A stretch of DNA of 23,128 nucleotides, taken from IMG/VR virus record IMGVR_UViG_3300006749_000151, positions 1-23,128 of that record; one strand, written 5' to 3'. Position 1 is the first letter of the stretch, and each line of letters opens with the position of its first letter. The notes beneath the pieces are model-generated. The model did no database searches and had not been told where the DNA came from. It saw only the letters and a program-made list of their open reading frames with translations. Shown here in pieces: positions 1,274 through 19,675 of the stretch. Position numbers and translations under genes: made by a program. Origin of the DNA: a virus.

Positions 1274-1614
1274 ACTACACCACCCAGATCACTGCTTTAA
1301 AGCGTAAGGACGTTGAAGACTTCAAAGATGTCGTTACGCATGTCAGCTGGCAATTAACCGGCACATCTCATGATGGATATAAATGCCATTTCTCAGGTGC
1401 TACACCAATTGAGGATTTCTCTCAACTTGATGAATTAACGTTTATTCCGTATCAGGATTTACGTGAAGAGCAGATCATTACTTGGATTGAGGGTGTTCTT
1501 GCTGCTGATCCTGATTACAAGCAGCACATCATAGATTACATCAAAGGGTTCATTGACAGTGAAAGAGAGATAAGTATCGCTGAAGAGAATTCGCTCCCTT
1601 GGGTCGAATCTTAA
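1270..1614 (+). CDS. Hypothetical cyanophage protein (DUF7936-like)
   Basis: A 114-residue protein. It starts with a beta-strand region containing T-G-T-S-H-D-G and F-S-G-A-T-P, continues with a helix carrying E-E-Q-I-I-T-W-I, and ends in a short S-L-P-W tail. This order resembles a small conserved family seen next to tail-fibre genes in many cyanophages that I associate with DUF7936; the name is from memory. Function is unknown; a virion-associated role is plausible. The ATG overlaps the previous stop by 4 bases, and the upstream GAGGAGG at 1262-1268 is a strong ribosome binding site. Its stop (TAA 1612-1614) interlocks with the stop of the reversed peptidase gene (TTAA at 1611-1614). Confidence 0.72.
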   Translation: MNYTTQITALKRKDVEDFKDVVTHVSWQLTGTSHDGYKCHFSGATPIEDFSQLDELTFIPYQDLREEQIITWIEGVLAADPDYKQHIIDYIKGFIDSEREISIAEENSLPWVES

Positions 1615-2306
1615 ATCCGTCTGATATCCATCATCCAACCGGAACCCTCTCCCTCGACTATCCATCGGGGGTTCCAGTTTTTGAATGAGTAAGAAACAGA
1701 CTCACCTTGGTCATGGTTGATATAACCACCATGTACAAGATCTGCTTCACCAAAAGGGTCATGAACCCTCCAGGAGCAATCTGTGTATCCAATGACCACT
1801 GAGTAGTGACCTGACCCAGTGGGTTTATAGCTAGGCCCAGCATGCAGCCAGCCACAGGGAGTTGGAATCCCAGAATCGATCTGTCTTTTAAGGTCGTCGG
1901 TTGAGGCATTGGTGATGAACTCTGCCTTGAGGCCCAATGAAGCCAATGCTTTCACATGCGCTGAAGCAAGAGTTGAGTCCCCATACTCAGCCCTAATTGT
2001 GTTGTACTCGTCGTCGTTCTTTACTACCCCGTAATACATGCCGACCATTCCGCAGCAGCTAGAAAAACACTCCCTCCATCCGGTGCCGGTCTCGTTATCC
2101 AATTGAGACTGAAAGGGGACTTGTAATGGGTTAAGTAGTTCTCTTTTGACCTGATTCCGGTAGGTCTTCACCCAAGTGGATTCAGAATCCTTTAGGTCAG
2201 AAGGAAGGCGGACGTATAGCTGCTCCAGTGCTGCTTCTTGATGCGCAACACCTTGCTTATAGTAATTAAAGAAGTCTTTGAACTGATTAAGGTTTAGCTG
2301 AGACAT
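1611..2306 (-). CDS. C39-like papain-fold cysteine peptidase, candidate endolysin
   Basis: Residue numbers here count from the upstream ATG at 2327; I prefer the second ATG at 2306 because it gives the usual N-terminus of this protein type. The catalytic Cys is C87, in R-E-C-F-S-S-C-C-G-M-V-G-M-Y-Y-G. H174 lies in G-H-Y-S-V-V-I-G-Y and D190 in V-H-D-P-F-G, giving a peptidase C39-like Cys-His-Asp triad. The first ~65 residues form a helical region (F-x-x-Y-Y-K-x-G-x-x-H-Q) resembling N-termini of cyanophage lysis proteins. It probably cuts peptide bonds in peptidoglycan or a protein substrate. It is the only leftward gene in this late block, and its stop overlaps that of the preceding + gene. 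No strong Shine-Dalgarno is seen. Peptidase fold is likely; endolysin role is inference. Confidence 0.78.
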   Translation of the reverse strand: MSQLNLNQFKDFFNYYKQGVAHQEAALEQLYVRLPSDLKDSESTWVKTYRNQVKRELLNPLQVPFQSQLDNETGTGWRECFSSCCGMVGMYYGVVKNDDEYNTIRAEYGDSTLASAHVKALASLGLKAEFITNASTDDLKRQIDSGIPTPCGWLHAGPSYKPTGSGHYSVVIGYTDCSWRVHDPFGEADLVHGGYINHDQGESVSYSFKNWNPRWIVEGEGSGWMMDIRRI

Positions 2307-2363
2307 CTTAATCCGATTTATATACATTCTAATCGTTTAAAATAGGTTAGTGAGGTAATTATC

Positions 2364-2642: not shown

Positions 2643-3373
2643 GCGATTCTCTAAAACGCCTTGCAGGTGAAGCATTCAACATCATGCCTGACCGGATGAA
2701 CCTATTCCTCAGGTACATGACTGGCGTAGGCAATGAAGCATTAAGGCTGGATGAATCAACACTCCGCTCTATTCGTCAGGCAACAGAGCAGCCAGACAAG
2801 GTTGTTGACTACATCGACCCAGAGCAAGCTGCTCGTGAAATATTCGTGGATAATCCTGAAATGAGTGCTCGTTTTCTAGAGAGCAGCAAGTCACCTATAC
2901 AAAAAACAACTTATAAGTATGGGCCTAACCTCCCCACCTCCGGGCCAGTAGATCCTTATATTTTGAATTCTGATAAAGCAGTAACTCAAACGCTCGGACG
3001 ATTTGTTGCTGATGTCAACGATGACGGGTCTATTCGAGTGACCGATACCTACGACATGCTTAATGAAGCCGAAGACCCAGATTTAGTGTCTGGCTCTTTC
3101 CGTCCTGACAAAGCTCTACTAAAACTGCAAGGACTTTACAACCCGGAAGCTCGAGCAAGGCTTATCAATCAAATCAACATCGAGCAAGGCAACGAACCAA
3201 CGATGATGCGACCACCTATGGATAATCGGAGTTATCAGGAAAAAATAAAAACTGGAGGCGACAGCCCAACCGGATCGCCATTGTCGCAAGTTGCTCGAGC
3301 TGCGATGTATTTGGCTCCTTACAAGCCGCAGCCGTTTGATATTGACATAACTGTCCCACCACAAAAATACTAA
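2639..3373 (+). CDS. Hypothetical protein, possible virion component
   Basis: A 244-residue protein starting at GTG (2639), with GAAGG six to seven bases upstream and a 4-base overlap with the previous gene. The N-terminal ~70 residues are helical and the rest is mixed and Pro/Asp-rich. The C-terminal third is polar and low in hydrophobic residues, with T-G-G-D-S-P-T-G-S-P and a proline-rich end. There is no signal peptide, membrane segment or catalytic motif. Its place in the structural operon suggests a tail or virion-associated protein. I do not recognise the family. Confidence 0.68.
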   Translation: MSDSLKRLAGEAFNIMPDRMNLFLRYMTGVGNEALRLDESTLRSIRQATEQPDKVVDYIDPEQAAREIFVDNPEMSARFLESSKSPIQKTTYKYGPNLPTSGPVDPYILNSDKAVTQTLGRFVADVNDDGSIRVTDTYDMLNEAEDPDLVSGSFRPDKALLKLQGLYNPEARARLINQINIEQGNEPTMMRPPMDNRSYQEKIKTGGDSPTGSPLSQVARAAMYLAPYKPQPFDIDITVPPQKY

Positions 3374-3874: not shown

Positions 3875-4881
3875 TGTCATTTAAAATTGGATCTAATACA
3901 GTTATTGATAACAGCAGGACTGGATTCTTTCAGGGTGTTCAAGTAGGAACTTCTCAACCAAGCAGTCCGTCAACTGGAGAGCTTTACTACAACACTAGTA
4001 CGGGACTGCAGGTCTATAACGGATCTGCCTGGGTTGCTGTTGGAGGTGGAGGTCAGGGGTCCTCGTCTACTGCAGATGGTGGCGGTATAATTTTCCAAGG
4101 AGGTCGCGTATATCACGTTTTTACAAGCCCTGACACTTGCACGGTGCATAAAACTATCAGTAACGCATGTCTAATTTGTGCTGCCGGAGGTGGCGGGGGC
4201 GGAACATCTATTGGCGGAGGCGGCGGTGCCGGTGGTTTTCGTGATTCCAACCATTTTACTCTTAACAGTGGAACTTATACCGTTACTGTTGGAGCTGGTG
4301 GTTCGCAGGGTCAGAACGGCTCACCTTCTTCTTTCGGTACAGTACTAAGTTGCACTGGTGGTGGCGCTGGTGGCTCCAATGGGCAAGGGGGCAACCCTGG
4401 CGGTAGTGGAGGCGGGGGTTCTCACGGGGGACCTCCTAATGGTGTTCGAAATAACAAAGGTAGCGGCATTAGTGGTGAAGGTCGCGATGGAGGCAACGGA
4501 GGAAACAACGGTATGTCCTGCTTCACTGGTGGTGGAGGAGGTGGTGGATCAGGAGCTGGTGGTCCTGCAAACCTCAGGCCTATCGGAAGTGGACGTACTG
4601 TAGGTGGCTACGGTGGCGGTGGTATAAGTGTCTATGAAATCGGCCAAAACTTGAAGTTCTGCGAGGGAGGCGGTGGTGGTGTAAATAGAGGTCAACCTAA
4701 TATTCAAGAACCAGGACCATCAGGGGCTCATGGTGGCGGTGAAGGCAACTGGCCCCAAAACAACAAGATAATAGATGCATTCTCCTCAGGATCAGGCGGC
4801 GGAGGCGCAGGTCAAGGAGTTCCTGCAGGCAGGGGATGCGGAGGAATGATCATCCTCCACTATTCAACTTCACAGCTCTAG
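3874..4881 (+). CDS. Glycine-rich tail fibre/adhesin
   Basis: A 335-residue protein. Residues 1-55 are the K-I-G-S-N-T-V-I-D-N module ending in N-G-S-A-W, shared with the preceding gene. Residues ~75-105 form a beta linker. From ~105 to the end there are repeated runs of four to seven Gly separated by Ser, Asn or Ala, with F-x-L-N-S-G-T-Y-T-V-T-V-G-A-G-G as an ordered strand. This is the Gly_rich-type fibre tip known from cyanophages and related in idea to polyglycine-helix adhesins of T-even phages, where loops between Gly runs recognise the host surface. The ATG at 3874 overlaps the previous stop; ATG 3865 is less likely. Three oxygenase genes follow after one small gene. Confidence 0.83.
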   Translation: MSFKIGSNTVIDNSRTGFFQGVQVGTSQPSSPSTGELYYNTSTGLQVYNGSAWVAVGGGGQGSSSTADGGGIIFQGGRVYHVFTSPDTCTVHKTISNACLICAAGGGGGGTSIGGGGGAGGFRDSNHFTLNSGTYTVTVGAGGSQGQNGSPSSFGTVLSCTGGGAGGSNGQGGNPGGSGGGGSHGGPPNGVRNNKGSGISGEGRDGGNGGNNGMSCFTGGGGGGGSGAGGPANLRPIGSGRTVGGYGGGGISVYEIGQNLKFCEGGGGGVNRGQPNIQEPGPSGAHGGGEGNWPQNNKIIDAFSSGSGGGGAGQGVPAGRGCGGMIILHYSTSQL

Positions 4882-10947: not shown

Positions 10948-12138
10948 ATGGCGCAAACCACAGCCTGGAGAGAGCACCTGACCCTCTTCAACAAAGCGCT
11001 GAAAGAAAACAAGGACTATTGGGTCAATGGCACCTATGTACGCGGTCGGGTCAAATCAAAACCCAATCGGTTTGGAAATCGGTCGCTTGATCTTGTGGCC
11101 GACTGGAACAGCGAGGAGGACGTAACAACACGACGTTTAAAAGTAGAGATAAAAACTAATGATCTAAATGGATCATTTAGCAAGGCTTTATTAGAAGCAA
11201 AAGAGCTCATTCTTCAAGCAAACATGGGATTATCGACTAGACGATTGACCTATGACGATAAAGCAATTAGGCCAAAACAACTGCGTCAAATCCAAGCAGC
11301 TCAGTTGGTAAAAGCAAAAAAATATTTAGCTGCTCGTTCTGAGCGACTTAATAATAATGATCGAACATTAGCCGATCACATTCGCTGGACCGAACATGTC
11401 TTTGGATATTCGAAACAAGAAGGACGGGAGATTTCGTTGCAATTGTGGGCAGAGGCAACAGCAGTCCTTTACCCATGGCGTGGTCAAGCTTCCTATAAAC
11501 GTTCCCTTGAAATAGGGAAGAATGTATGCCGTGAGTTAAAGGTGCCTCTGGGTATACAAGAGGAAGACAAACCTGCATACAAACAAAACACTTCAAATTT
11601 GTTGAGCACACCAAGCGAAGCCGAGGTGCGAGAACGTTTAGAGGCAATTCAAGATGCCGACGAACAAAAGCTTGCCTTCGCCATTACATCAACAGGATTG
11701 CGTCATATGGATATTTATAGTGTCGACTGGAATACCTATCTACCAAAAACAGGTCGTGCAAGATATTGGTGCTCTAAAAAGCAAAAGCAATACGTCATGG
11801 TACCTTGCGCCATTGATGGCTTCTGGTTAGACCTTTCCGGTTGGCGGCCACCAGAGTACGAGACTTATCATTTGTGGGGGGAGAAAGCAGATCCTAATTT
11901 GGAAAGAATTAAATTTCTGCAGTCGCACAAATTATCCAAATGGTACAGCCATGTGATGGGATTTAGTAGCACAACAAATCGACATCGTTACTGTTCATTT
12001 ACAATCTCAAGTGGATTTCACAGCATTGAATCTTGTGCCAGAGCTGTGGGTACATCTGCTAGTCAGATTGATGCGACGTATGGCAACGAATCCTGTGAAT
12101 ACGATTACCACTTAGGACTGGCGGCAGAGAAGGCATAA
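10948..12138 (+). CDS. int: Tyrosine recombinase/phage integrase with atypical active site
   Basis: A 396-residue protein, usual length for a phage integrase. A basic N-terminal DNA-binding region is followed by a core-binding part and a C-terminal catalytic domain. Box I is T-S-T-G-L-R-H-M-D-I (R252), with a Lys-rich beta hairpin S-K-K-Q-K-Q near 276-281. Box II aligns at N-R-H-R-Y-C-S-F-T (R347), and the nucleophile is Y378 in Q-I-D-A-T-Y-G. The two usual His are missing: the H-x-x-R position is N344, and L-G-H is V-G-T (T369). It would integrate or excise the element, plausibly at tRNA-Leu encoded 0.8 kb downstream. CAGGAG at 10940-10945 lies only 2 bases before the ATG. The end overlaps a reversed HTH gene by 80 bases. 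Confidence 0.82.
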   Translation: MAQTTAWREHLTLFNKALKENKDYWVNGTYVRGRVKSKPNRFGNRSLDLVADWNSEEDVTTRRLKVEIKTNDLNGSFSKALLEAKELILQANMGLSTRRLTYDDKAIRPKQLRQIQAAQLVKAKKYLAARSERLNNNDRTLADHIRWTEHVFGYSKQEGREISLQLWAEATAVLYPWRGQASYKRSLEIGKNVCRELKVPLGIQEEDKPAYKQNTSNLLSTPSEAEVRERLEAIQDADEQKLAFAITSTGLRHMDIYSVDWNTYLPKTGRARYWCSKKQKQYVMVPCAIDGFWLDLSGWRPPEYETYHLWGEKADPNLERIKFLQSHKLSKWYSHVMGFSSTTNRHRYCSFTISSGFHSIESCARAVGTSASQIDATYGNESCEYDYHLGLAAEKA

Positions 12139-12940: not shown

Positions 12941-12980
12941 TCGAAGCCTGTTTTATCTAAGGATCGTCTCATGTCAAGAG

Positions 12981-13064
12981 TGGGACCAGAGGGAATTGAA
13001 CCCTCACCTCCTTTCGGAGAACGCATTTTAAGTGCGGCGCGTCTACCAATTCCGCCATGGTCCC
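12981..13064 (-). tRNA. tRNA-Leu, anticodon TAA
   Basis: Read on the minus strand, the 84-base gene has acceptor GGGACCA pairing with TGGTCCC and discriminator A. The D-region is G-C-G-G-A-A-T-T-G-G-T-A-G-A-C, and the anticodon loop CTTAAAA gives anticodon TAA. A long variable arm TCTCC-GAAA-GGAG fits class II Leu tRNA, and the T-arm is GAGGGTTCAATTCCCTC. CCA is not encoded. The group I intron found in trnL(UAA) of many cyanobacteria is absent. The 3' end faces the HNH gene and integrase, as expected of a tRNA used as an integration site. It could be host-derived attachment sequence, a phage-carried tRNA, or both. Confidence 0.96.
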
Positions 13065-13137
13065 GACGAACTAACAATAGCAGAGAAAGTCCGTGATATA
13101 AATGTAGTTAAAATAGAGCTAATAAGTGATATATATC

Positions 13138-13281
13138 ATGGAATTCCTCTCCAAGCCAGAAACCTGGATTATCATTGCTGCTCTCAGTGAGATCATTGCA
13201 ATTAGTCCCCTTAAAGACAACAGTGTGGTTCAGCTAATCATGACCGCCATCAAATCGCTGAAACCTGCAAAAAAGAGGTAA
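13138..13281 (+). CDS. Small membrane-type protein (47 aa), possible frameshift donor
   Basis: An ORF read directly: M-E-F-L-S-K-P-E-T-W-I-I-I-A-A-L-S-E-I-I-A-I-S at the start and K-P-A-K-K-R at the end. Residues 10-23 are strongly hydrophobic and short for a membrane helix; the C-terminus is basic, consistent with an inner-membrane peptide or small amphipathic protein. No strong Shine-Dalgarno is seen; the leader is AT-rich (gtgatatatatc). Codons 44-46 read GCA AAA AAG, the exact slippery sequence of E. coli dnaX, and a -1 shift here opens an 85-codon frame to 13532. Alone, it is a plausible small lysis-type or host-effect peptide. Confidence 0.62.
   Translation: MEFLSKPETWIIIAALSEIIAISPLKDNSVVQLIMTAIKSLKPAKKR
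13269..13275 (+). promoter_or_regulatory. Candidate -1 ribosomal frameshift site A AAA AAG
   Basis: The heptamer is phased as GCA AAA AAG in the 47-residue frame, two codons before its stop. Established knowledge: this heptamer drives efficient -1 slippage in E. coli dnaX. The -1 frame is the one that carries the start-less ORF to 13532. Only a weak hairpin (CATC/GATG, 13286-13299) follows, and no upstream Shine-Dalgarno stimulator is evident, so efficiency is uncertain. Confidence 0.5.
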
Positions 13282-13532
13282 GCAACATCCCAAAAGATGG
13301 CAAATGGATATTTCAGTATGACAGCCGGTCAAGTTATGATCGGTTTCATCGATATATTCAAGAAAGAAAGTTTTATGCCACTCTGCCTAAGAAACTAGAC
13401 CAGGCCGAAGATGCCTGGCTCAAGTCTCAAGAGGACCTGCCTCCTCAGGTTGAATTTAAAGAGACAGGGGAGTTTGGCAAAACAGGTTGGTCGATTTCCT
13501 ACAAGCATCCATCGAGCAAGCGCAATGGTTGA
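13275..13532 (+). CDS. Start-less ORF, probable -1 frameshift extension of the preceding gene
   Basis: Frame open from the stop before it to TGA 13530-13532, 85 codons from GAG 13275. It contains no ATG, GTG or TTG at any useful place. Yet it encodes a balanced protein-like sequence (W-I-F-Q-Y-D-S-R-S-S-Y-D-R-F-H-R-Y-I, L-P-K-K-L-D-Q-A-E-D-A-W, T-G-W-S-I-S-Y-K-H-P). Reading from 13138 and slipping -1 on A AAA AAG (13269-13275) would give a 131-residue fusion: membrane-type N-terminus plus a soluble, charged C-terminal domain. The next gene's ATG (13525) overlaps its stop by 8 bases, supporting that ribosomes arrive here. Alternatives are a non-AUG start (ATC 13287 after GAGG) or a sequence error in the six-A run. 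Confidence 0.55.
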   Translation, partial: EVSNIPKDGKWIFQYDSRSSYDRFHRYIQERKFYATLPKKLDQAEDAWLKSQEDLPPQVEFKETGEFGKTGWSISYKHPSSKRNG

Positions 13533-13764
13533 ACAATTGGTACCCGCCTTAATCGCACTTGTTTCAGGCGGCTTCATTCTCACAAGCAAAATCAATACCA
13601 GCATTAAAGAGCTTGACAGGCGCATTGATGGTGTTGAGCTGAGAGTTGCAGAGTCGTATGTGAGCAAGGACACATTCAACGTGATTATTGAAAGATTTGA
13701 GACACATCTTGCGCGAATGGAAGACAAGATTGATCGGTTGAATTCAACAAGATTCGACTCGTAA
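13525..13764 (+). CDS. Small membrane-anchored coiled-coil protein, lysis-type candidate
   Basis: A 79-residue protein: M-V-E-Q then a hydrophobic segment L-V-P-A-L-I-A-L-V-S-G-G-F-I-L (residues 5-19), followed by a charged helix with heptads (I-K-E-L-D-R-R-I-D-G-V-E-L-R-V) continuing to I-I-E-R-F-E-T-H-L. One N-terminal membrane anchor plus a long coiled coil is a layout seen in spanin- and holin-like proteins and in many small phage membrane proteins. ATG 13525 overlaps the upstream stop by 8 bases; the longer frame from 13411 would overlap that ORF throughout. The gene at 14512 has the same layout and may be a distant paralogue. Confidence 0.68.
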   Translation: MVEQLVPALIALVSGGFILTSKINTSIKELDRRIDGVELRVAESYVSKDTFNVIIERFETHLARMEDKIDRLNSTRFDS

Positions 13765-13800: not shown

Positions 13801-14253
13801 ATGGCACAATATGCAGAACACTGGGGCGAACTCTTGTTCAACCTAGATCACCTGTCCAAAAGAACTGCTAGAAAACAGTTCAGACAAGATATAAGATATG
13901 CCTGGGGAGGACTCTGCTGTTATTGCCGAAACGAAAAAGCCACAAGTATTGATCATGTCCACCCTCGCAGCAAGGGCGGTTCCAACTTAAAAAGTAACCT
14001 TGTGCCAGCATGCCGGTCGTGCCAGGAATCCAAGGGAAATAGATTGGGTTGGTATGATTGGTTCAAGGAGCAGCCATTTTTTAATCAAAATGCAGCTGAC
14101 CTAATCACTGATTGGATTTCAAATAAAAGGTTTCTGGAACAACATGATGAGCGAACTGAACATCGAGCAGAGGTTTGCACTCACCAGAGCGCGTTACGAA
14201 TGCTCCAAGATGAGCCGTCCAGCCTTGGAAAGGACTGTATTACGGCTGCTTAA
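13801..14253 (+). CDS. HNH endonuclease
   Basis: A 150-residue protein. The HNH core is C-C-Y-C (39-42), S-I-D-H-V-H-P-R-S-K-G-G (D51, H52), N-L-K-S-N-L-V-P-A-C (N66, C71) and C-x-x-x-K (C74, K78). These match canonical active HNH nucleases with a zinc-binding Cys4 knuckle. A helical C-terminal part with W-Y-D-W-F-K-E-Q-P-F-F follows. The ATG at 13801 is preferred; a TTG at 13786 inside the palindrome is possible. The last 110 bases overlap the next gene in another frame, unusual for this genome. Roles could be DNA degradation, packaging help or homing; it is not next to a terminase here. Confidence 0.85.
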   Translation: MAQYAEHWGELLFNLDHLSKRTARKQFRQDIRYAWGGLCCYCRNEKATSIDHVHPRSKGGSNLKSNLVPACRSCQESKGNRLGWYDWFKEQPFFNQNAADLITDWISNKRFLEQHDERTEHRAEVCTHQSALRMLQDEPSSLGKDCITAA

Positions 14254-14476
14254 GTCGAGAATGGAACAAAAGAACGGTGTTCAAGAAGCCTTAATGGCAA
14301 ATGGCATCGTCTTTAAAATTGACGAGATGTCTAACGGACTGCCCGAAATCATTTCCGAGCAGACGTTTTGTGATCTGCTTATGATGAGCGATGAGGACGA
14401 TCAGATGTCAACTGACATAAACGATCCAGGCTACGAGTATGACGATCTAGACGATGACGATCTCACTTTCGTCTAA
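14144..14476 (+). CDS. nblA: NblA-like phycobilisome degradation adaptor with acidic C-terminal extension
   Basis: A 110-residue protein. Residues 4-54 match the NblA pattern: L-N-I-E-Q-R-F-A-L near the start, S-K-M-S-R-P-A-L-E-R-T-V in the middle, then L-L-K-S-R-M-E-Q-K-N and a final amphipathic helix. NblA proteins (~60 residues) link phycobilisome subunits to the Clp protease and cause pigment loss; active NblA is known from marine cyanophages. Here residues 60-110 form an extra tail ending in a run of Asp (D-D-L-D-D-D-D-L-T-F-V), not part of classical NblA. ATG 14144 (or 14147) lies inside the HNH gene, 110-base overlap. Alternative: an unrelated small helical protein. Symbol tentative. 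Confidence 0.52.
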   Translation: MMSELNIEQRFALTRARYECSKMSRPALERTVLRLLKSRMEQKNGVQEALMANGIVFKIDEMSNGLPEIISEQTFCDLLMMSDEDDQMSTDINDPGYEYDDLDDDDLTFV

Positions 14477-14511: not shown

Positions 14512-14757
14512 ATGGAATACATTGTTGGCCCTGTACTTGCGCTTCTGATTGGTCTTAAATTCACTCACCATCAAAGTGGTGTCGCAACTAAAAAGCTTGA
14601 CGAACTTGATGAGAGAATTGAGTTCCTTGAGAATGAAATCATTCAAGTCAGAGTGGATCGCGAAAAGAAAGATGAGGAGTTATCTCGCAGGGTTGTAGAA
14701 ACGGTAATGCCTGTAGCCAAAGCAGTAAACAAGCTGAATCAGACTGTAGGCATCTGA
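14512..14757 (+). CDS. Small membrane-anchored coiled-coil protein
   Basis: An 81-residue protein. Residues 3-16 are hydrophobic (Y-I-V-G-P-V-L-A-L-L-I-G-L-K) and would insert into the membrane. The rest is a charged helix with clear heptads (L-D-E-L-D-E-R-I-E-F-L-E-N-E-I-I) ending in V-N-K-L-N-Q-T-V-G-I. It repeats the layout of the 13525 gene, with a similar (K-x-L-D-E-x-I) transition. A lysis-accessory (spanin-like) or membrane-stress function is possible; no lipobox is present. The start is near an AT-rich run (cgtataaATGG) with no clear Shine-Dalgarno. Confidence 0.68.
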   Translation: MEYIVGPVLALLIGLKFTHHQSGVATKKLDELDERIEFLENEIIQVRVDREKKDEELSRRVVETVMPVAKAVNKLNQTVGI

Positions 14758-17249: not shown

Positions 17250-18566
17250 TCAATGGGTGTCAGCCCAGGTCTTGCCAATATCAGAGGCAGCAGTGATTGG
17301 AACCTTAAAACCATAATGCTGACCAGCCAAAGGTGCAGCCTGGACTAAGATGTTGGCAACACGTTCTGCTTCTTGTGGTAGCACTGATAGCTGCTGTTCG
17401 TCATGCACATAAGCACAGCGAGTGTAATCAACATCGTAAGTCAGCCCTGCCTCATCAAGCATTTGTTGAGAGATAACCAGCCAGCGCTTAGATAAAATCG
17501 CGCCAGCGCTCTGGAGCAAAAAGTTCAAAGAACTGTGTTCAGCTCGACAATAAATAGGACGTCCATCTAGCCCCCTTAAGTATCCATGCTCTCGGACACG
17601 CTCTTTAACAGCCTCAATTAGAGGTTCAAGACCTGGAATAGCTTCGAGAAATTTTTTACGCAGTTCTTGTCCAAGACTCTTTTTGGCTGCGTCAGAGTAT
17701 TCAGGCTTCACAATATGGGCCAAGCGAACATCGCCAGCTCCATAGATGAACCCATAGGTTAGATTTTTTACAAGTTTCCTTGAAACGGGGACCTCTGGGG
17801 TAGTAACCCTGTCAGCATTTTGTTGATGGATGTCTCCATTAATTACAACATCAGCAAAAGAGCCCCCATCAAATCTGTGGAGATAGCCACCTAAGCATCT
17901 CAATTCCAGCCCTTCAAGGTCACTTCCCACCATGACATGTCCGGGATGAGGAATAAATAGTTGACGTGCCCAAGGTGCACTAACCACCTGGCCCAAATTT
18001 GGAGATCGGTGTATCTGACGGCCACTGACCGTGGCTAAGAGGCAACTGTGATGAATACATCCGTCCTCTTCTACAGTATTAAACCAACTGTTATTACCTT
18101 CAGAAAGCTGACCAAGCCATTTTTGCAGTGTCAGTAAACGAATAAACATCTCGCATTCCTGATGGAGCAGCTGGTTGTCAGACTGAAGGGCCTGGACCTG
18201 AATCTCACTTAGGGCAGCTTCATCAACCTTGGGTTTACCTGTATCAGTGACCTTCGTAAACCGAGCTTGGCGGAATTGCTGAAGAGCCCAAGCAATGTTC
18301 TGGCGGCTGGTGGGATTAAAAATTTCAAGGCGCGTCATGGGAGCGCCTGCGACATAACCCTTCTTCTTGTCCGAACGCTTAGGAGTGAATACCTTGCCTG
18401 GGACATAGGGAAAGCGGACAAGGATCTGCTGCTCAAGATCGTTGTATTCCTGCTGCAGCTCGGCTCGGACCTCGATGGCACGCTCCATGTCAAAGCGGAA
18501 ACCTGAACGCTCCTGCTCGGCCATGATTTCGGCCATCTTCATTTCCAGTTCTAAGTAATCACGCAT
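17250..18566 (-). CDS. DNA polymerase, family A, polymerase subunit (T7-like, split gene)
   Basis: A 438-residue protein carrying the thumb, palm and fingers of a T7 gp5-type polymerase. Motif A is S-D-L-E-G-L-E-L-R (D216); motif B is R-K-L-V-K-N-L-T-Y-G-F-I-Y-G (R263, K267, Y271); motif C is V-H-D-E (388-390). T7-type signatures Y-V-A-G-A-P and F-N-P-T-S-R lie at 71-88. The region equivalent to the T7 thioredoxin-binding insert is reduced to about 20 residues before Y-V-A-G-A-P. Tyr271 sits where T7 has Tyr526. The 3'-5' exonuclease is not in this ORF but in the upstream one, whose TGA overlaps this ATG by 8 bases (18559-18566). It replicates phage DNA. Confidence 0.95.
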   Translation of the reverse strand: MRDYLELEMKMAEIMAEQERSGFRFDMERAIEVRAELQQEYNDLEQQILVRFPYVPGKVFTPKRSDKKKGYVAGAPMTRLEIFNPTSRQNIAWALQQFRQARFTKVTDTGKPKVDEAALSEIQVQALQSDNQLLHQECEMFIRLLTLQKWLGQLSEGNNSWFNTVEEDGCIHHSCLLATVSGRQIHRSPNLGQVVSAPWARQLFIPHPGHVMVGSDLEGLELRCLGGYLHRFDGGSFADVVINGDIHQQNADRVTTPEVPVSRKLVKNLTYGFIYGAGDVRLAHIVKPEYSDAAKKSLGQELRKKFLEAIPGLEPLIEAVKERVREHGYLRGLDGRPIYCRAEHSSLNFLLQSAGAILSKRWLVISQQMLDEAGLTYDVDYTRCAYVHDEQQLSVLPQEAERVANILVQAAPLAGQHYGFKVPITAASDIGKTWADTH

Positions 18567-19170
18567 AGTGCTTCATCCGATTTGTGAGATGGACATAAAG
18601 GAGATATGTGACATATGTGTCCTGTGAGCAATAGTCGAGCATTTCTGGGGTGTATCGAGACCAAGCATCAGGCTGCTTACCGAAATCACCTTTGTGACAA
18701 CGCAGTCTCCACCCCCAGGCCTCGAGACTGTGCCTTCCATACAAACGAACAGGCATTCCCTCAGGTGACTTGTCGTAGTCACGCTCAAGAATGTGTGGAT
18801 AGAAGAGCCTGCTCAGCACAAGGGTGTCTATCTTCTTACCCCTAGGCGAAAATTGAGGGAACTGCTCCTTGAGAAGGGGCAGGTCATAGCTCAAGATATT
18901 GTGTCCGATTATTAAATCGGCAGACATGATCTCATGGACGCCAGCAAAGATTTGAGAACTGACTTCCCAAGCTGCTTCTTTCTTATCTTGAGCCTCCTTG
19001 ACTAGGTATTGGTCCTGGACGTAGCTGACGGGAACATCACATTCACCTAAGTGGCGATTGACAATGCAATGAATTTGTGAACCCTGACGCAACAGGCCAG
19101 TGGTCTCCAAGTCAAAGATCAGCTCGGTCTTCGTCTTGGATGTCTTCGCTGGTTTGAGGGTCGTAGTCAT
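18559..19170 (-). CDS. DNA polymerase 3'-5' exonuclease subunit (split T7-like gp5)
   Basis: A 203-residue DnaQ-fold proofreading exonuclease. Exo I is F-D-L-E-T-T-G (D20, E22), Exo II is G-H-N-I-L-S-Y-D-L-P (N91, D96) and Exo III is Y-C-S-Q-D (Y180, D184); all catalytic acids are present. Between them lie R-H-S-L-E-A-W-G and W-S-R-Y-T-P-E-M-L-D-Y, as in T7 gp5. It corresponds to the first ~190 residues of T7 polymerase. ATG 19170 is chosen because it starts just ahead of the conserved core; the frame extends upstream to 19287 only through the preceding gene. It overlaps the deaminase-like gene by 59 bases and the polymerase gene by 8. The two proteins presumably assemble as one enzyme. Confidence 0.93.
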   Translation of the reverse strand: MTTTLKPAKTSKTKTELIFDLETTGLLRQGSQIHCIVNRHLGECDVPVSYVQDQYLVKEAQDKKEAAWEVSSQIFAGVHEIMSADLIIGHNILSYDLPLLKEQFPQFSPRGKKIDTLVLSRLFYPHILERDYDKSPEGMPVRLYGRHSLEAWGWRLRCHKGDFGKQPDAWSRYTPEMLDYCSQDTYVTYLLYVHLTNRMKHYA

Positions 19171-19675
19171 CTGGCTTATAAGCGTCGGTGTAGAGAGACG
19201 TATCGACTTGCTGATCGATGATGTCTTGAGCGTTAACAGCGAAACGCGGATCTTTGTTGTCAAAGAATGGTTCGATCGCCATTCCAACTTCTCGAGCTAG
19301 TCGAGCAGCACGCCTGAATTCGTCCTTGTAAAAGGGCTCCCAATCATGCGCCAATACATAGATCTGACGGATACCCATCAGATGGCACTGAAAGACAGAA
19401 GCAGAGAATGGGTATCGTGTTGAGTAAACAACAGATCCAACTGTCGGTGTGCCACGTTTGCAAGCAGCAGCGATGGCATAAGAGACACAGTCAATCTCCA
19501 CCTTTGAATGGGTTAGCAATGTGCGCCCATCACCAATAATTTCACGATCACGAACAATTACGCAACCGCCAGGTGTTTTGGGATGAGTGGATGCATTGCT
19601 GACAATCTTGGCTACATCCATAAAGAATTTTTCCTTATTCTTGATGTATGTAGGGTCACCTTTTGGACTGGGCAT
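19112..19675 (-). CDS. dCMP deaminase-like protein lacking zinc ligands (pseudoenzyme candidate)
   Basis: A 187-residue protein aligned with the cytidine/deoxycytidylate deaminase fold: K-F-F-M-D-V-A-K-I-V-S at the start, then G-G-C-V-I-V-R-D-R-E-I-I-G-D-G, Y-A-I-A-A-A-C-K-R-G-T and G-S-V-V-Y-S-T-R-Y-P. The zinc site is not conserved. The H-A-E motif is replaced by K-V-E-I-D, and P-C-x-x-C by P-F-S-A-S, so all His/Cys ligands are gone (the Glu remains). The protein is therefore unlikely to deaminate dCMP. It may have been kept as an allosteric, structural or nucleotide-binding protein. A C-terminal Asp-rich extension overlaps the exonuclease gene. It belongs to the replication operon. Confidence 0.75.
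   Translation of the reverse strand: MPSPKGDPTYIKNKEKFFMDVAKIVSNASTHPKTPGGCVIVRDREIIGDGRTLLTHSKVEIDCVSYAIAAACKRGTPTVGSVVYSTRYPFSASVFQCHLMGIRQIYVLAHDWEPFYKDEFRRAARLAREVGMAIEPFFDNKDPRFAVNAQDIIDQQVDTSLYTDAYKPDDYDPQTSEDIQDEDRADL

Follow-up and report, generated by a model that had tools for sequence, protein, structure and literature searches.

A probable programmed −1 ribosomal frameshift in a membrane-protein gene of the lysis module in cyanophage-related phages

Most known cases of programmed −1 frameshifting in tailed phages are tail chaperone genes. In dnaX of E. coli (tau/gamma), frameshifting gives the shorter product, with an upstream Shine-Dalgarno (SD) sequence and a downstream hairpin as stimulators. 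The gene considered here shares with dnaX both the heptamer A_AAA_AAG and its phase (PMC5009743), and in each a stop follows shortly after. Unlike in dnaX, frameshifting would lengthen the product, and no SD-like element was detected. The lambda G/GT tail chaperones offer a second comparison, as there too ribosomes shift to −1 close to where a short ORF ends, so that a minor product gains a C-terminal domain, and the lambda-type heptamer G_GGA_AAG is that of one relative of our locus, S-EIVl. The lambda product, however, is a soluble tail chaperone encoded beside the tape measure gene, whereas the product here would be a lysis-module membrane peptide; identity with G/GT was rejected because the neighbors are lysis genes and a membrane segment is predicted in the product.

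Dual-start holins (lambda S105/S107; SPP1 24.1/24.1* and 26/26*) are alike in that one lysis gene gives two membrane protein forms, as described for both SPP1 genes (PMC6316719). Those forms are made from two start codons and are distinguished by their N-termini, whereas here the C-termini would differ through frameshifting; no frameshift is reported in the SPP1 holin genes (PMC6316719). The two-component holins XhlA/XhlB and SPP1 gp24.1/gp26 likewise consist of two small membrane proteins, one with a coiled coil, beside an endolysin, but similarity to XhlA is weak and sub-threshold here. In the open-licence literature, to which the search was confined, phage frameshifts are described in tail genes and a few others, including a lactococcal lysin reference, and no earlier report of frameshifting in this gene or in a cyanophage lysis cassette was found. 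The mechanism would be an ordinary −1 frameshift; judged by that search, its use in this gene is new.

The two reading frames in the window

The window (the whole stretch of DNA analyzed, 23,128 nucleotides) contains the following features at the proposed frameshift site.

13138..13281, + strand: 0-frame ORF of 47 codons; one predicted membrane segment (residues 9–25), Lys-rich end; PHROG 22542
13269–13275, + strand: slippery heptamer A_AAA_AAG, in phase, one codon ahead of the 0-frame TAA; phase conserved in homologues
13275..13532, + strand: −1 extension, 85 codons long (EVSNIPKDGKW...SYKHPSSKRNG); KBS-S-2A, S-CBS1, and many metagenomic phages have homologous −1 extensions
13282..13301, + strand: weak predicted RNA hairpin that begins 6 nt past the heptamer; homologues do not share it as a single structure

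The peptide opened by the ATG at 13138 reads MEFLSKPETWIIIAALSEIIAISPLKDNSVVQLIMTAIKSLKPAKKR* and its ORF closes with the codons GCA AAA AAG AGG TAA, the TAA standing at 13279; the original prediction, which had a 47-residue ORF ending two codons after GCA AAA AAG, holds base for base. The GTG at 13126, in the same frame, is an alternative start that could give the membrane peptide 4 more residues. Hydropathy analysis gives the 47-aa peptide a single hydrophobic segment. In a PHROG search, this short product matches phrog_22542 (E 7e-21), a 49-aa family whose model spans the short form only. A Pfam search gave it no match, and PHROG 22542 has no assigned function, so no known holin family was matched.

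The −1 frame is closed by the TGA at 13530–13532 and holds no ATG, GTG, or TTG between its upstream stop and the domain. Its stop overlaps the ATG of the next gene (13525) by 8 bases. The overlap, the 85-codon length from 13275, and the missing start codons had all been described at the outset and are as described. Translation across the slippery site is predicted to give the junction peptide ...KPAKKEVSNIPK... and an AlphaFold model of the extension has a long helix at residues 20–52, with low overall confidence (pTM 0.36). Taken alone, the heptamer is not above chance, as the window has 7 copies of AAAAAAG against 8.8 +/- 2.6 in shuffled sequences. Its significance comes from the conservation of its position in homologues and not from its frequency.

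In the mechanism that we propose, most ribosomes would make the 47-aa membrane peptide, ending at the TAA at 13279, and a fraction would slip at GCA AAA AAG (13267–13275) into the −1 frame and read on to 13532. The slipped product would be a protein of ∼130 aa in which the same membrane segment is followed by a C-terminal domain that is mostly helical and probably cytoplasmic.

The three heptamers that we find at this locus in different phages (A_AAA_AAG, C_CCA_AAG, and G_GGA_AAG) belong, in E. coli, to the −1 sites that are most prone to shifting (PMC5009743). An upstream SD-like stimulator was not found (mean duplex energy −0.5 versus −1.3 kcal/mol at control positions); such an element is an optional feature and is not needed at every programmed −1 site. 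Predicted 3′ structure in the homologues is somewhat stronger on average than in synonymous shuffles (mean z −1.08) but heterogeneous, and a search of the homologues for a universal downstream hairpin found none, with clades differing. The downstream structure in the window has a z of −2.07 against dinucleotide shuffles, and the hairpin predicted at 13282..13301 is a possible stimulator.

Conservation of the slippery site and the −1 protein

A protein search with the 85-residue extension as the query returned the cyanophages KBS-S-2A and S-CBS1. Each carries the matching stretch in the −1 frame, downstream of a homologous membrane peptide of 49 or 52 aa that ends in GCA AAA AAG AGC TGA or CAA AAA AAG GAC TGA. 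A_AAA_AAG and the two-ORF layout are also present in S-CBS3 and in the T7-like phages S-B28, WH11-B, and 7B11-B, whose extension is shorter and shares the C-terminal FxETGxFGxxGWSIS stretch of the window's extension, and S-EIVl combines G_GGA_AAG with a related extension. A related membrane peptide with neither heptamer nor extension occurs in the uncultured phage MedDCM-OCT-S37-C6 and in P60, which thus serve as natural negative controls. The KBS-S-2A extension is unannotated, and those of S-CBS1 and S-CBS3 are annotated from internal starts only: S-CBS1 gp23 (3022–3234 of locus L004) and S-CBS3 gp22 (3177–3344 of locus L085) appear as independent genes and are probably truncated calls of the −1 extensions. 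A DNA-level search with the whole window found no close isolate, and a scan of genome contigs found no prophage copy of the frameshift gene. Two hits (L002 and L172) were dropped as due to chance. The host assignment rests on relatives; among isolates, the closest ones have Synechococcus as their host.

Viral contigs were scanned three times, with the KBS-S-2A extension, the S-B28 fusion, and an alignment of −1 domains as seeds, and each scan gave 80 loci, with partial overlap. Removal of near-duplicates at a threshold of at least 90% identity over 150 nt left 90 membrane-peptide ORFs. A homologous −1 extension is present in 87 of these 90, and 86 of the 87 carry a canonical in-phase −1 heptamer 0–3 nt ahead of the stop. 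A_AAA_AAG, whose retention in the same phase the original prediction had looked to for support, accounts for 61 of the 87 extension loci, C_CCA_AAG for 24, and G_GGA_AAG for 1. All three homologues without the extension lack the heptamer. When loci were picked by the −1 domain alone, 62 of 63 had it. The sole exception, L250, keeps the extension behind a degenerate site, G_CCA_AAG (reading TTG CCA AAG). Across the isolate genomes and more than 100 contigs, the 0-frame stop is always 0–1 codon behind the slippery site.

Three loci (L227, L234, and L242) read TTC CCA AAA AAG just before the extension, a sequence that holds A_AAA_AAG plus a C_CCA_AAA step. This arrangement is a plausible evolutionary intermediate between the C_CCA_AAG and A_AAA_AAG sites.

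The range of heptamers bears on two explanations that do not involve the ribosome. A miscounted A-run could have split one gene in two, through sequencing error or in a pseudogene; runs of six A's are well-known sites of sequencing error, and in one contig (L048) the frame is continuous through an indel further upstream. The same split nevertheless recurs in isolate genomes and in more than 100 contigs, some of which carry CCCAAAG or GGGAAAG and so contain no A-run at the site, and we consider this explanation extremely improbable. The six-A error first raised as an alternative is refuted for the family, in which relatives use C_CCA_AAG or G_GGA_AAG, and could hold at most for the window copy. 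Transcriptional slippage is very improbable as the source of the fusion: A-runs can cause polymerase slippage, but six A's are short for it, and the −1 relation is kept at the 24 loci with C_CCA_AAG and the 1 with G_GGA_AAG, which have no such run. Thus, two heptamer types without an A-run exclude both sequencing error and transcriptional slippage as the general cause.

As for L048 itself, a one-base indel near 3935–4001 joins peptide and extension and alters the stretch after NSVIQ. The joined frame there is probably an error or a mutant.

At loci with A_AAA_AAG, AAA AAG is preceded by GCA, GGA, CCA, GAA, TCA, CGA/AGA, ACA, CAA, or GTA. The residue at this position is therefore of nine kinds (Ala, Gly, Pro, Glu, Ser, Arg, Thr, Gln, and Val), and the third base is always A, although codons ending in A are the minority for each of the nine residues within the same ORFs. 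An invariant third-base A has a log10 P of about −6.4 with each amino acid counted once, and of −34.6 if every sequence is counted and relatedness ignored. Because the amino acid varies and the third base is fixed, selection at this position acts on the site and not on the protein. The extension itself carries the mark of a translated sequence. Differences at its three −1 codon positions number 13973/9985/25491, and this bias toward the third position indicates translation in the −1 frame under coding constraint; residues F33, T36, L37, D42, W48, and P79 are near-invariant.

These data also bear on whether the two frames are separate genes, with the downstream ORF started at a non-AUG codon (ATC at 13287, or a CTG or TTG near the first stop) or by stop-restart coupling. 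The overlap GGC TGA TCC found in many relatives does create CTG and ATC codons in the −1 frame, and some relatives have a TTG at +23. No start is conserved, however. Among 67 loci, the downstream ORF has no ATG, GTG, or TTG in 46, only GTG or TTG in 20, and an ATG in 1; homologues with an ATG of their own, which had been named as contrary evidence, are therefore confined to that single locus. The GTG and TTG codons usually fall inside a conserved motif and are not conserved family-wide, the common TTG lying within the DGRWL motif, and the CTG is missing from the window, L037, L125, and the T7-like phages. The ATC at 13287, suggested originally as a possible start, is not favored, since relatives conserve no start in that frame. 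Separate genes would also leave the conserved heptamer and the invariant A before AAA AAG unexplained, and we regard them as highly unlikely.

Comparison thus establishes a conserved slippery site and a conserved −1 reading frame, and the in-phase heptamers of the homologues support the programmed −1 frameshift at a dnaX-type site that had been predicted. Slippage itself and its rate are inferred. In our judgment, the locus is very likely a programmed −1 ribosomal frameshift gene that belongs to the lysis module of marine, cyanophage-related phages.

Gene neighborhood and a possible role in lysis

Gene order was compared at 67 non-redundant heptamer loci. An endolysin gene is nearby in 61, usually directly after the frameshift gene, and a small membrane/coiled-coil gene adjoins the frameshift gene in 53. 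The window has both kinds of gene.

13525..13764, + strand: 79-aa partner protein with an N-terminal membrane segment and a coiled coil; weakly XhlA-like (E 0.021, below cut-off)
1611..2327, − strand: endolysin-like protein with a C39-type peptidase domain; PHROG 10051 endolysin

The window endolysin is far off and on the other strand, so the link to lysis rests here on the relatives. In S-B28, WH11-B, and 7B11-B, the gene pair sits between the tail-fibre region and the terminase genes, the position that holin gene 17.5 occupies in T7. Of the lysis or tail role proposed at first, lysis agrees with the conserved gene order, whereas that order led us to reject a tail gene. It is also conceivable, if rather unlikely, that the frameshift is real and the gene acts outside lysis, for example as a membrane anchor for another late function. 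The short form does belong to a PHROG of unknown function, but the nearby endolysin, the frequent membrane/coiled-coil partner, and the position of the gene in the T7-like relatives argue against such a role.

Judged solely by size, hydropathy, and synteny, the short form is most likely a holin-like peptide or a component of a holin; with no known holin family matched, we use "holin-like" and not "holin". The Lys-rich end follows the membrane segment, and by the positive-inside rule this suggests that the tail of the long form is cytoplasmic. By analogy with dual-start holins, the long form would most likely be a minor partner that tunes the short form, either antiholin-like or as a scaffold. 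Lysis function, topology, and the roles of the two forms are likewise inferred.

In most loci, the ATG of the next gene lies 8–62 nt before the end of the −1 ORF. This frequent overlap suggests translational coupling as a second effect of frameshifting: because the −1 ORF ends across the start codon of the next gene, translation by slipped ribosomes may also be coupled to the endolysin or the membrane/coiled-coil gene. Were coupling to the downstream lysis gene the main purpose, the fusion protein would matter less. The overlap would fit that reading, but the extension is conserved as a protein, with its third-position bias and near-invariant residues, and in S-EIVl, L133, L061, and L062 the nearest candidate starts are downstream of the −1 stop; we consider a frameshift that serves mainly for coupling unlikely. 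A fuller proposal, which we hold tentatively and with slightly less than even confidence, is that a fixed frameshift ratio sets the timing of lysis, with a holin-like peptide and a C-terminally extended regulator made from one start and the slipped ribosomes feeding the overlapping lysis gene.

Several other features of the window were recorded. Near the frameshift gene, positions 14512–14757 (+ strand) encode a small protein with an N-terminal hydrophobic segment and a coiled-coil-like tail that has weak family matches only. A 110-aa protein at 14144–14476 (+ strand) weakly resembles NblA (phycobilisome degradation), below the threshold (Pfam E 0.017); some cyanophages carry genes of this type. 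A DNA polymerase I-type polymerase domain at 17250–18566 (− strand) and a separate upstream exonuclease-like ORF at 18559–19287 overlap by 8 bases, and the pair (17250–19287) is either a split gene or another recoding case. A tRNA-Leu(UAA) gene at 12980–13064 (− strand) is near a 396-aa ORF at 10948–12138 (+ strand) that looks like a tyrosine integrase by eye and has no match in PHROG; the tRNA gene is a possible attachment site.

Overall, this locus represents a widespread set of slippery sites, with three heptamers at one position, in a membrane gene of the lysis module. If confirmed, the frameshift would be a new route to two forms of a holin-type protein, and the annotation of a recurring gene would be corrected. 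It would also give a testable handle on the timing of lysis for phages that infect ecologically major bacteria and whose lysis genes are poorly defined.
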